Assembly: GCF_003390845.1 (NCBI RefSeq)
Contig: NZ_QMEK01000003.1
Location: 372,001-436,000 of the forward strand
Source of the DNA: Tropicimonas sp. IMCC34043
GTDB taxonomy: Bacteria > Pseudomonadota > Alphaproteobacteria > Rhodobacterales > Rhodobacteraceae
Direction: 5' to 3'
Length of the DNA: 64,000 bases
Shown: one piece after another, positions 38,923 through 42,170 of the stretch
Layout of the letters: each line of letters starts with the position of its first letter
Position numbering within the stretch: position 1 is the stretch's first letter
The notes under the pieces: generated by a model
Told to the model about the DNA's origin: nothing
Seen by the model: only the letters and a program-made list of their open reading frames with translations
Database searches by the model: none
Position numbers and translations under genes: made by a program

Positions 38923-39153
38923 GTGGCGGACGGGGGCGGGGCCGTATGCCGCGACCCGTCCGAAGCAGACTGGCCCGGAGGATCCCGCGGCGGCGTGACG
39001 CCTCAAGATCTGCGCAGGGCATGCGGTCTGGTCGCGCATGCCCTCAGCATCCCGCTGAATGAGGTTCTCGATCTGCCGATGCCGGAGTTCCGGGACTGGC
39101 TGAAGGTCTCGCAAGAGATCCTGGCCATGAACCGTGCCGGCCTGATGGCCTAG
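38923..39153 (+). pseudogene. Phage tail-assembly-chaperone-like ORF
   Basis: The recognisable part is the last 50 residues, LRRACGLVAHALSIPLNEVL followed by DLPMPEFRDWLKVS, which fits short phage tail chaperones of the gpE/E' kind (aromatic/hydrophobic helix, then LDLP and a Trp helix). The frame opens at a GTG (38923), but the preceding 24 residues look like decayed sequence; a second GTG at 38995 follows a GGAGG. It is called phage-derived mainly because tape-measure and gpD fragments sit on the far side of the cargo. Could instead be a small intact gene. Confidence 0.4.
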
Positions 39154-39506
39154 GGTTCGCACATGACACAGGAGCCCCGATGGGAGCAGGATATCGGCCA
39201 CGGATCCAGCCTCCCCAGGCATGGTTTCCAGATGAAGGCTGGAGTCCCAATTTGCCCTATGCTGCACTGCTCACATGGTGCACGAAGGGCGGGAAGCAGT
39301 CATTCTCTGCAGCTAGAACAGAGGCATAATGGAGAAGCTCAGGCTTGCAATCCGAGACATTGACGATGCACCTAACATCATCGACAGTTTTCGAGGAAGA
39401 GACGCTTGGCGTGCGACTGTACGCCTGTTGAGCCACCGATAGTCAGGAAGGTTCAACCTACGTTGCCCGGCACAATGCTGGTACATCAGCCTTCAGGAGG
39501 GCGAAG
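39154..39506. other. Gap before the defence pair, GC drops here
   Basis: No convincing gene. GC content falls visibly after about 39230, marking the left edge of the foreign segment. AT-rich stretches near 39325-39380 could hold the ptuA promoter. No integrase, inverted repeat or target duplication was found at this edge. Confidence 0.5.
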
Positions 39507-41042
39507 TTGTTCTACGTATTAAACAGTCTTCCGATCGACGCTGAGCCAGGCGACTATGTGCTAATCGAAGACAATTGGGACGACTGGTTCACATACGAGA
39601 CGAAGTATCACCTCTACGTACGCCCATTAGATGGCGAGAGCGGTTGGAAAGCAATTGGCCCGGTGAAAATCGGCCAAGTTGATATGTCTAGGGGCCAAAG
39701 ACGTGCCGCAATTCCAGAGCAATTTGAAAATCTAGATGGAGAGTTTTTCTCGCTTGGGCAAGTGGAAAGCTACTATGAGACGGCGGTAGGTTTAGGTTTG
39801 GCTGACCAACTTCTCAGGGATCTCAACGACATCGCGTTTGACAACCAAATATTCCGAAAAGTTCGTCGCGAAGACGTAACGCGAGTATCGTTGCTAAGGA
39901 GCGTCAAAGAAGCGACTGTGCTCGGCGATTTCACAAGGATCATCAGTGGCTCTGTTCCACTAACCGCATATGACTTTTCCTATACCGGACCACAACAGTT
40001 GTCATCCGAGCATGAACCGATACAGCTCGATTTCAAAGTCGAGCCAGGGAGCAATCCGCCATCAAATATTCACGTGTTAATCGGTCGAAATGGCATTGGT
40101 AAGTCATTCATTTTGAACGCAATGATCCGCGCTCTTGTGACCAACGCAGATGATGAAAATGAAGATGGAAAATTTGTCGATGAAAACCTTTTGGCGGCGG
40201 AAGATAATCTGTTCTCCGCTGTAATATCGGTAACCTTTAGCGCCTTTGACAAATTTGAGCCCCTCACAGATCGCCAGGTCACACGCGAAGGCATCATCTA
40301 TGCTTACGTTGGACTAAAAAATAAGAGACGGAATTCTAAAGATGACCCAGGAATTAAGGACTTGAGCGCTTTAGCTAGAGAATTCAGCCTGAGTGCCCAA
40401 CAGTGCGTGAGTGATGGTCGATTGAAGCGTTGGCAACGGGCTCTGGACATGCTTGAGTCTGACCCAATATTTCGAATTACTCGAATATCTGAACTCGCCG
40501 ATATTGAAGAAATAGAAGAGTTTAAAAAAATCGCTTCATCGAGGTTCAGGAATCTCAGTTCGGGCCACAAGATTGTACTTCTGACTATCACAAAACTTGT
40601 GGAACTTGTTCGCGAACGCAGCCTTGTGCTACTCGATGAGCCAGAAGCTCACCTTCATCCGCCGCTCCTTTCAGCATTTGTGAGGGCGCTATCTGATCTT
40701 CTAAATAATAGAAATGGGGTAGCAATTGTAGCCACGCATTCCCCCGTGGTTCTACAGGAAGTCCCAGCCAACTGCACTTGGCAGCTTGAACGCCACAATA
40801 CGCTCATGGTCGCTCATCGTCCTGAAGCCGAAACATTTGCGGAGAACGTGGGCATACTGACACACAGAGTCTTCGGTTTGGAAGTTGAGGAAGCCGGTTT
40901 CTATAATCTTATTCGTGATACAGTGATTGAGGAAGGCGACTATGACGAGGTAATGGAAAAATACGGTGGCCAGATTGGCTCTGAAGGCCGTGGCCTCATT
41001 CGCAGCTTGATCGCTCTGCAAAACAGGAAGTCCAAGGGCTAA
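39507..41042 (+). CDS. ptuA: Septu-type defence ATPase PtuA
   Basis: ABC-like ATPase of a Septu anti-phage pair; in studied systems PtuA oligomers hold PtuB and release its nuclease upon infection. The 511-residue protein has Walker A GRNGIGKS at 193-200, signature LSSGHKI near 350, Walker B SLVLLDEPEAHLHP near 371-384 and the H-loop ATHSP near 409. About 170 residues precede the ATPase (starting MFYVLNSLPIDAEPGDY) and match nothing recognised. The start is TTG at 39507 with a perfect AGGAGG six bases upstream. Codon use and GC are unlike the neighbours, pointing to transfer. The stop shares a base with ptuB. Confidence 0.85.
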   Translation: MFYVLNSLPIDAEPGDYVLIEDNWDDWFTYETKYHLYVRPLDGESGWKAIGPVKIGQVDMSRGQRRAAIPEQFENLDGEFFSLGQVESYYETAVGLGLADQLLRDLNDIAFDNQIFRKVRREDVTRVSLLRSVKEATVLGDFTRIISGSVPLTAYDFSYTGPQQLSSEHEPIQLDFKVEPGSNPPSNIHVLIGRNGIGKSFILNAMIRALVTNADDENEDGKFVDENLLAAEDNLFSAVISVTFSAFDKFEPLTDRQVTREGIIYAYVGLKNKRRNSKDDPGIKDLSALAREFSLSAQQCVSDGRLKRWQRALDMLESDPIFRITRISELADIEEIEEFKKIASSRFRNLSSGHKIVLLTITKLVELVRERSLVLLDEPEAHLHPPLLSAFVRALSDLLNNRNGVAIVATHSPVVLQEVPANCTWQLERHNTLMVAHRPEAETFAENVGILTHRVFGLEVEEAGFYNLIRDTVIEEGDYDEVMEKYGGQIGSEGRGLIRSLIALQNRKSKG

Positions 41043-41893
41043 TGTGGTCGCTGCAAGTACCGGGCTCTGACGGGGTGGAAACTTTGGATGCATCGCGATC
41101 ACGCCTCAGCCCTATTCATGAGAGAACGTTACGCATTAATGCGGCCAGAGAGGGCATACTAGCTATCATGGAGACCTATGAGGGGCACGGTGAAACTTCT
41201 ACGTTGCACACACTCGCTCCTCACGAGGTGGTAGCTGGAACCGTGCTGAAGTCAGACATGGAATACCTGTACTCGGGTGGTCTGGCAGGACGTGGTGGAC
41301 GACATATCTATGATGCGATCATGGGCCTGGCCCCCAACAGCCGGTGCCCTTATTGCGGCCATCGAAGAGTCAGGCAACTCGACCATTTCCTGCCCAAGAG
41401 CAAGTATCCCGCCTTCAGCGTAACTCCATTGAACTTAGTTCCATCTTGCTCTGATTGTAACAAGGATAAATTGGCGGGGGATGCGGCGCGATTGGAGGAC
41501 CTTCCCCTACACCCCTACTTTGACAACGTTGATCATCAGACCTGGCTGACAGCAGAATTGCTCGAAGGCCCAATTGCTGTGTTTATGTTCAATGTCGACC
41601 ATGAATGTGGACTTCCGAATATGGACCTTTTGCGGCTTCAATCACAGTTTGATATCCTCAATCTAGGCGAACTCTTTACCACTGAGGCCAATGAAGAATT
41701 GGCATCGATTAGACTTAACCTGCGGCGTGTCCTTGAGGATGTCGGCGAAGAAGGGGTTCAGGAGCTTCTTGAGGACGCCGCTCTATCATCTGAACATCAT
41801 CAGCGGAATTCTTGGAAGACTGCCATGTATCGGGCAGCATCACAGAGCGACTGGTTCTGCGAAGGTGGGTTTGACGATGCAGAGCTCATCTAA
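41042..41893 (+). CDS. ptuB: Septu-type HNH endonuclease PtuB
   Basis: Nuclease effector of the pair. The 283-residue protein has an HNH domain at about 100-145: zinc Cys pair CPYCGHRR, catalytic QLDHFLPKSKYPAF, the Asn in LNLVPSCSDCNKDK with the second Cys pair. About 100 residues precede the domain and 135 follow, with acidic helices (for example LNLRRVLEDVGEEGVQELLE). The ATG overlaps the ptuA stop (TAATG), ensuring coupled synthesis. AAA ATPase immediately followed by an HNH protein is the definition of Septu; no reverse transcriptase is present, so it is not a Septu retron. Confidence 0.85.
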   Translation: MWSLQVPGSDGVETLDASRSRLSPIHERTLRINAAREGILAIMETYEGHGETSTLHTLAPHEVVAGTVLKSDMEYLYSGGLAGRGGRHIYDAIMGLAPNSRCPYCGHRRVRQLDHFLPKSKYPAFSVTPLNLVPSCSDCNKDKLAGDAARLEDLPLHPYFDNVDHQTWLTAELLEGPIAVFMFNVDHECGLPNMDLLRLQSQFDILNLGELFTTEANEELASIRLNLRRVLEDVGEEGVQELLEDAALSSEHHQRNSWKTAMYRAASQSDWFCEGGFDDAELI

Positions 41894-42170
41894 CTGAGGC
41901 ACTTGATATGGGTGTTTTGCATCTGACAACTTACAATCGTTCTGATTGCAAATGCTCTATGCCCCTCCCCACTATACGCCGGCACCCATCGGCACCGGCT
42001 ATTTGGTCGACGCAGGTTTAGTCAGGCTCATCTGGGCTAAATGATGCGGGAAATCCGACATTCGACACATTTCACTGAATGTCCGCAATGGGGCCGTTCG
42101 CCTTTTGTCAGATCTCTTGTGGATCGCCACCGCAGCGCCTGAATGACCACGGCGAGCCCATGCCAGTCAG

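Follow-up and report, generated by a model that had tools for sequence, protein, structure and literature searches.

Two adjacent genes in the alphaproteobacterium Tropicimonas sp. IMCC34043 recall the Septu defense system, with an ATPase gene followed by an HNH nuclease gene, and the ATPase begins with a long stretch that precedes its nucleotide-binding core. Does this pair form a Septu-like defense module, and does the added N-terminal part set it apart from Septu as already catalogued? We addressed these questions in a window of 64,000 nucleotides from contig NZ_QMEK01000003.1, for which a first-pass annotation had proposed a Septu-type pair with an unrecognized extension that could define a new variant. 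Positions given below without a locus name are those of the window, and all coding features lie on its forward strand.

The first gene (39507..41042) encodes a PtuA/Ea59-like ABC-type ATPase of 511 amino acids. Its frame is intact and starts with TTG, six bases downstream of an AGGAGG that resembles a ribosome-binding site (39495..39500). The Walker A motif, GRNGIGKS, spans residues 193-200 (40083..40106); its position and the coordinates of both reading frames were confirmed as first annotated. Further along the protein lie LSSGH, which we take to be an ABC-signature-like motif (residues 350-354, 40554..40568), LVLLDEPEAHLHP, presumably the Walker B region (residues 373-385, 40623..40661), and ATHSP, which we read as H-loop-like (residues 409-413, 40731..40745). 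In an alignment of 80 sequences S351, G353 and H354 of the first, D377 and E378 of the second and T410-P413 of the third are invariant.

The second gene (41042..41893) encodes a PtuB/Ea31-like HNH nuclease of 283 amino acids and shares one base with the first in the TAATG at 41040..41044, as had been noticed from the sequence. Its HNH core (residues 102-143, 41345..41470) matches the Pfam HNH family at 22.0 bits against a cut-off of 21.4, and C102, C105, D114, H115, N131, C136, C139 and N140 are invariant among 12 aligned family members. The flanks of this domain measure 101 residues before and 140 after, where the first-pass annotation had given 100 and 135. The protein is indeed longer than the PtuB/HNH chains of retrons (215-266 amino acids), yet its length is ordinary within its own family, whose HNH proteins mostly have 276-304 amino acids.

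The two genes travel together. From the 498 relatives that a scan of genome contigs returned we took the best-scoring 80, and with all 37 loci from viral contigs this gave 117 loci; since the query alignment includes the extension and only the best-scoring 80 were retained, the sample leans toward extension-bearing proteins. The ATPase profile matches in 117 of the 117 loci, in 114 of them at full length in one frame. An HNH gene lies directly downstream of the ATPase in 114 loci, and in the other three the sequence ends 3, 84 and 188 bases past the ATPase frame, so the pairing is not due to chance. When the HNH start is placed by a simple rule, at the start codon nearest to the start of the profile, the genes overlap in 63 of the 114 pairs (by 1 base in 33 and by 4 in 23) and are separated by at most 15 bases in the remaining 51. 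A swapped, non-HNH partner in some loci was considered and ruled out, as HNH proteins are present there with the motif variants DHH, DHT, DHS and DHQ. One locus (L140, genome G455) holds a broken pair, with ATPase pieces in different frames and just the tail of an HNH-like gene to be seen.

We then compared both proteins with the PADLOC models. The ATPase matches PDC-M01A (PDLC04235) at 5e-191 over residues 13-507 of 511 (profile positions 16-507 of 510), and the HNH protein matches PDC-M01B (PDLC04264) at 7.8e-86 over residues 1-278 (profile positions 1-279 of 282); the best 25 of its 58 PADLOC matches are all PDC-M01B. With a full-length PDC-M01A match and an adjacent PDC-M01B match, the pair belongs to PDC-M01, from which we found no difference, the N-terminal domain included. 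PDC-M01 is a candidate family, PDC systems being described as unpublished candidates (PMC11811056, in the part consulted), and the window copy adds a further member to a family already catalogued. The ATPase also matches the Septu PtuA1 model PDLC00282 at 4.5e-178 over residues 18-508. Nine other PtuA1 models, among the best 25 of 146 matching families, align best within residues 187-484, and positions 27-113 of PDLC00283 pair with residues 187-277. The NCBIfam models for PtuA (NF041760) and PtuB (NF041761), built on retron Ec78, give 53.1 against a cut-off of 500 and 11.8 against 150. Among phage protein families, the pair matches phrog_8066 (3.4e-146) and phrog_10378 (1.7e-47), which presumably hold Ea59 and Ea31 of phage lambda.

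The description as a Septu-type pair is thus supported in kind, by the PtuA1 and PDC-M01 matches and by the predicted fold of the ATPase. The AlphaFold2 model built with 80 sequences has a mean pLDDT of 93.0, and ranks 1-36 of its Foldseek matches are type I-A retron or Septu entries (E 4e-10 to 1.9e-06). The TM-scores to the PtuA-type chains listed are about 0.25-0.46 and rank 37 is an ABC transporter, which indicates that the top matches resemble the model in the ATPase core rather than in overall shape. With Septu type I (EcB88, PDB 8ee4/8eea) the pair has in common a two-gene operon of an ABC-type ATPase and an HNH nuclease, with Walker and HNH motifs, and a match to one PtuA1 model. It differs in the position of Walker A, which is near the N terminus in Septu type I: the Walker A lysine of EcB88 is residue 43 (PMC13096335, in the part consulted) and that of the window ATPase residue 199. 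Sequence similarity to the solved Septu PtuA is weak as well (8ee4 profile, E 4.6e-05), about as weak as to AriA (5.5e-05). Judged by its sequence and predicted fold, the pair probably works like Septu; we stop short of calling it canonical Septu, since its ATPase core sits elsewhere than in the tested system and its activity is a prediction.

Among solved ATPases, the best sequence and fold matches are those of type I-A retrons (Eco7/Ec78 and Ec83), in which PtuA and PtuB are joined by a reverse transcriptase and msDNA. In the Eco7 chain 9kjx_B, Walker A starts at residue 93, compared with residue 193 here. No retron component was seen in the window, where none of the 43 other open reading frames, picked by length and some of them in a wrong frame, matches a PADLOC model at 1e-15. 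A PtuA-like ATPase is also part of the proposed defense operon PtuXYZ, which differs in its partners, a DUF262 protein and a RelE-like toxin, and in its N-terminal P-loop domain (PMC11980606, in the part consulted).

What, then, is the extension? The first-pass annotation had counted about 170 residues devoid of familiar motifs. No Pfam family matches residues 1-174, but the part that is truly additional is shorter: in the AlphaFold2 model the first ATPase strands come after the helices of the N-terminal domain, and those from about residue 155 look to us like the start of the ATPase core, which makes the extra part about 150 residues and not 170-190. We place the domain at about residues 1-148 (39507..39950), based on conservation and predicted fold; it carries a D22-x-W24-x-D26 motif and T32. 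Modeled alone, as the annotation had suggested, residues 1-184 fold with confidence (mean pLDDT 94.5) into strands 2-5, 17-21, 33-38, 48-57 and 80-84, followed by five helices within residues 87-146. Across 80 sequences L19, D26, S82 and R131 never vary, and the positions that hardly vary include W24, T32, K54, I55, F81, G84, Y89, Y90 and D108. The profile of the domain is found in 115 of the 117 relatives, the other two (L131 and L132) being partial frames.

The extension is therefore a real mark of the PDC-M01-type family, and in that sense the annotation was right that it marks a variant. It does not newly define one, as PADLOC already holds full-length models that include it. In an HMM comparison with known PtuA types, as had been proposed, PDLC00282 and PDLC04235 each recognize the isolated extension in 80 of 80 sequences; 14 PADLOC families match at least one of these extensions at 0.01, and PDLC00282 is the sole PtuA1 model in that group. 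"Unrecognized" likewise holds in part, for the extension belongs to these PADLOC models and yet has no Pfam family and no PDB fold at E<=0.001. The 32 Pfam families that match extensions do so in one of the 80 relatives each (best E 0.0014 among the 25 of the 32 listed, sorted by members) and were taken as noise. Against PDB sequences, the best match to a profile of the domain was SarX (E 0.11), and Foldseek returned 78 PDB matches at E<=10 and 140 BFVD matches, none of either at E<=0.001. The BFVD result says little, since Ea59, a sure relative, is missing among the 50 best matches listed.

Two other leads on the domain were followed and dropped. A free-standing version was sought in 299 genomes of the phylum; five match, of which four have long frames (the window's own and three other genomes, with open frames of 515-565 amino acids) and the fifth is the broken pair at L140. 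The C-terminal part of the PDC-S34 model PDLC05000 (about profile positions 310-416 of 416) matches 44 of the 80 N-terminal domains at 0.01. The 17 genome matches listed for this model reach profile position 300 at most and thus stop short of the domain-like part, for which reason we abandoned the lead; the model is possibly mixed.

At least 8 bacterial phyla are represented in the family: in a tree of 77 ATPase sequences, 72 rows carry a phylum name, with 8 phyla and 14 changes of phylum, a number that does not prove transfer. Closest to the window ATPase are proteins of Fluviibacterium (Paracoccaceae, 72% identity) and Tranquillimonas (Roseobacteraceae, 70%). The family occurs patchily: at E<=1e-20 it matches in 8 of 292 genomes of the order, and at E<=1e-40 in 6 of 398 genomes of the phylum, the own genome counted in both; the second search also covered 14 control genomes, none of which matches. 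Relatives sit on plasmids (88 of 72,556 plasmid records match), on viral contigs, in a prophage and in lambda. The window pair itself lies in an island of low GC content (39250..42000), about 0.46-0.54 against 0.60-0.68 in the flanks.

Known defense genes adjoin some of the related loci, with QatC next to one pair (L040, 1.7e-53) and a type I restriction R subunit next to another (L038, 7e-28). Among 130 genes adjoining the pairs (one upstream and one downstream where available in genome loci, picked by length), REase_I models match at most 4 and type I specificity models at most 3 at 1e-15, within the best 25 of 246 PADLOC families. With 0 of its 43 other reading frames matching PADLOC, the window copy shows no defense island; the 130 neighbors and these 43 frames are unlike sets, and setting one beside the other is no proper enrichment test. 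No third gene is conserved, the largest cluster comprising 4 of 93 neighbors (70 upstream, 23 downstream). In four loci, the gene immediately ahead of the pair encodes one of a set of homologous ATP-binding proteins (L011:5625-7907, L167:5807-7906, L057:4836-6977 and L058:4782-6875); that of L057 has no PADLOC match at 1e-10. An empty site was sought by synteny and no clean one was found: the window shares a downstream methionine aminopeptidase gene with the relative G024 (88% over 895 bases) and not the gene order around it. A small reading frame upstream of the pair (38995-39150) weakly matches phrog_18729 (E 0.012) and is perhaps a prophage scrap.

Taken together, we consider it reasonably probable that the pair is a horizontally acquired, intact and stand-alone two-gene defense module of the Septu kind, in which the ATPase restrains the HNH nuclease. 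The same gene pair, the intact motifs and the nearest fold matches lead us to expect a Septu-like logic: the PtuA-like ATPase would assemble with the PtuB-like nuclease and hold it in check, phage infection would change the state of the ATPase, and the released nuclease would cut nucleic acid, be it tRNA or DNA, so that phage production stops. What we say of restraint and sensing is borrowed from other systems. In retron Eco7, msDNA and the reverse transcriptase restrain PtuAB in an antitoxin-like manner (PMC11555353, in the part consulted). The first-pass annotation had put forward a trigger sensor or an oligomerization unit as possible roles of the extension. With no retron part seen in the window and an additional conserved domain, the roughly 150 residues ahead of the ATPase core are a natural candidate for input, gating or assembly, a role that we think may be likened to that of the reverse transcriptase and msDNA in type I-A retrons.

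For this reading we count the full-length PDC-M01A/B and PtuA1 matches, the Foldseek ranking, the constant HNH partner, the patchy spread, the defense genes beside some loci, the mobile relatives and the drop in GC content at the pair. By analogy we add Septu EcB88, which requires its Walker and HNH motifs and in which tRNA-Tyr is cleaved upon infection (PMC13096335, in the part consulted). Against it we count the lack of a defense island at the window copy, NCBIfam PtuA/PtuB scores far below cut-off, the weak 8ee4 match, the low TM-scores and targets that vary among PtuAB proteins. As reported in the consulted part of PMC11555353, PtuAB expression depletes tRNA-Tyr for retron Eco7 and lowers no tRNA for Eco4, so that PtuAB proteins themselves do not share one target; for Septu of E. 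coli ATCC 25922, nicked DNA is the target cited in that paper. We also count against the module that the literature searched, which leaves most subscription papers aside, yielded no defense experiment on PDC-M01 or Ea59/Ea31.

The pair could instead be plain Septu type I, narrowly defined, its N-terminal domain a passive structural add-on with no function of its own. The PADLOC PtuA1 set does include a full-length model with the extension, and a survey of Bacillus cereus reports 41 calls of PDC-M01 that duplicated Septu calls (PMC11811056, in the part consulted). The invariant D26, S82 and R131, together with a confident fold of its own, suggest that the domain does more than packing, and we regard this alternative as unlikely, if far from negligible. 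Slightly less likely again is an accessory pair of phages and mobile elements with another job, such as DNA processing, exclusion of rivals or upkeep of a plasmid or prophage, which would resemble Septu merely through shared ATPase and HNH domains. Such a role would suit carriage by lambda, by 37 viral-contig loci and by plasmids, and lambda ea47, ea31 and ea59 were scored as non-essential for plating (Table 1 of PMC10695390, in the part consulted). It sits less well with a spread over at least 8 phyla, with known defense genes adjoining some loci and with the place that PADLOC gives the family among defense candidates. That the pair is a decaying, non-functional remnant, as the TTG start and the lack of a surrounding defense island might hint, is very improbable given open frames, intact motifs, a strong ribosome-binding-like site, overlapping genes and a close Agrobacterium relative that likewise starts with TTG.

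Returning to the probable defense module, its more interesting points are the link to lambda and a domain of no known fold, rather than the window copy. Lambda Ea59 is 39.2% identical to the window ATPase over query residues 22-502 of 511 (E 3e-83), and hence shares most of the extension; Ea31 is 27.8% identical to the HNH protein over query residues 56-275 of 283 (E 6e-22). Both are homologous to the window genes, lie in the same order with a 4-base overlap, and match the same models (Ea59 to PDC-M01A at 3.9e-201 and PtuA1 at 5.4e-184, Ea31 to PDC-M01B at 5.8e-113). They differ in being phage-borne near the attachment region, as the next genes past int and its binding sites, and in an HNH protein of 296 amino acids. 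E. coli also has another version of the pair, whose ATPase is 40.6% identical to that of the window and which is present in 90 of 5426 E. coli genomes. In one locus (L165:12001-14375) it lies between icd and the frameshifted integrase gene intE, with xis adjoining, and is, as we read it, cargo at a prophage attachment site; in another (L010) it lies beside icd on a record labeled as a plasmid. A 94% identical copy (L166:8063-13407) is found beside an ATPase and DUF4297 pair, near tRNA-Thr and proA.

We tentatively extend the reading to all of these: lambda ea59-ea31, the prophage-borne pair at E. coli icd and the window pair may form one anti-phage immune family, in which the DxWxD N-terminal domain, with a fold that has no solved relative, would be a phage-sensing or gating unit, and lambda lysogens would thus carry a Septu-like defense against rival phages. 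We hold this as possible and rather less than probable. If the family defends, ea59 and ea31, long-annotated genes of the best-known temperate phage, would gain a function, and a Septu-type trigger would be seen to work through a conserved N-terminal domain, with no retron. We found no paper tying lambda ea59-ea31 to Septu or defense in a search that took in few subscription papers, and the connection may already have been published; among the papers listed that name ea59 and lambda, none is on defense by title, and the consulted main text of an E. coli defense screen mentions neither HNH nor Septu (PMC9519451). A CRISPRi knock-down of ea59 gave an EOP of 13 with an S.D. of 17, a value that carries no evidence (PMC10695390, in the part consulted). 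Lambda's own version (L018:2926-5390) matches in 91 of 5426 E. coli genomes and is kept over at least 80% of its length in 68; in 4 of the 15 matches listed, BL21(DE3) and BLR(DE3) among them, 870 bases of it are kept alone.
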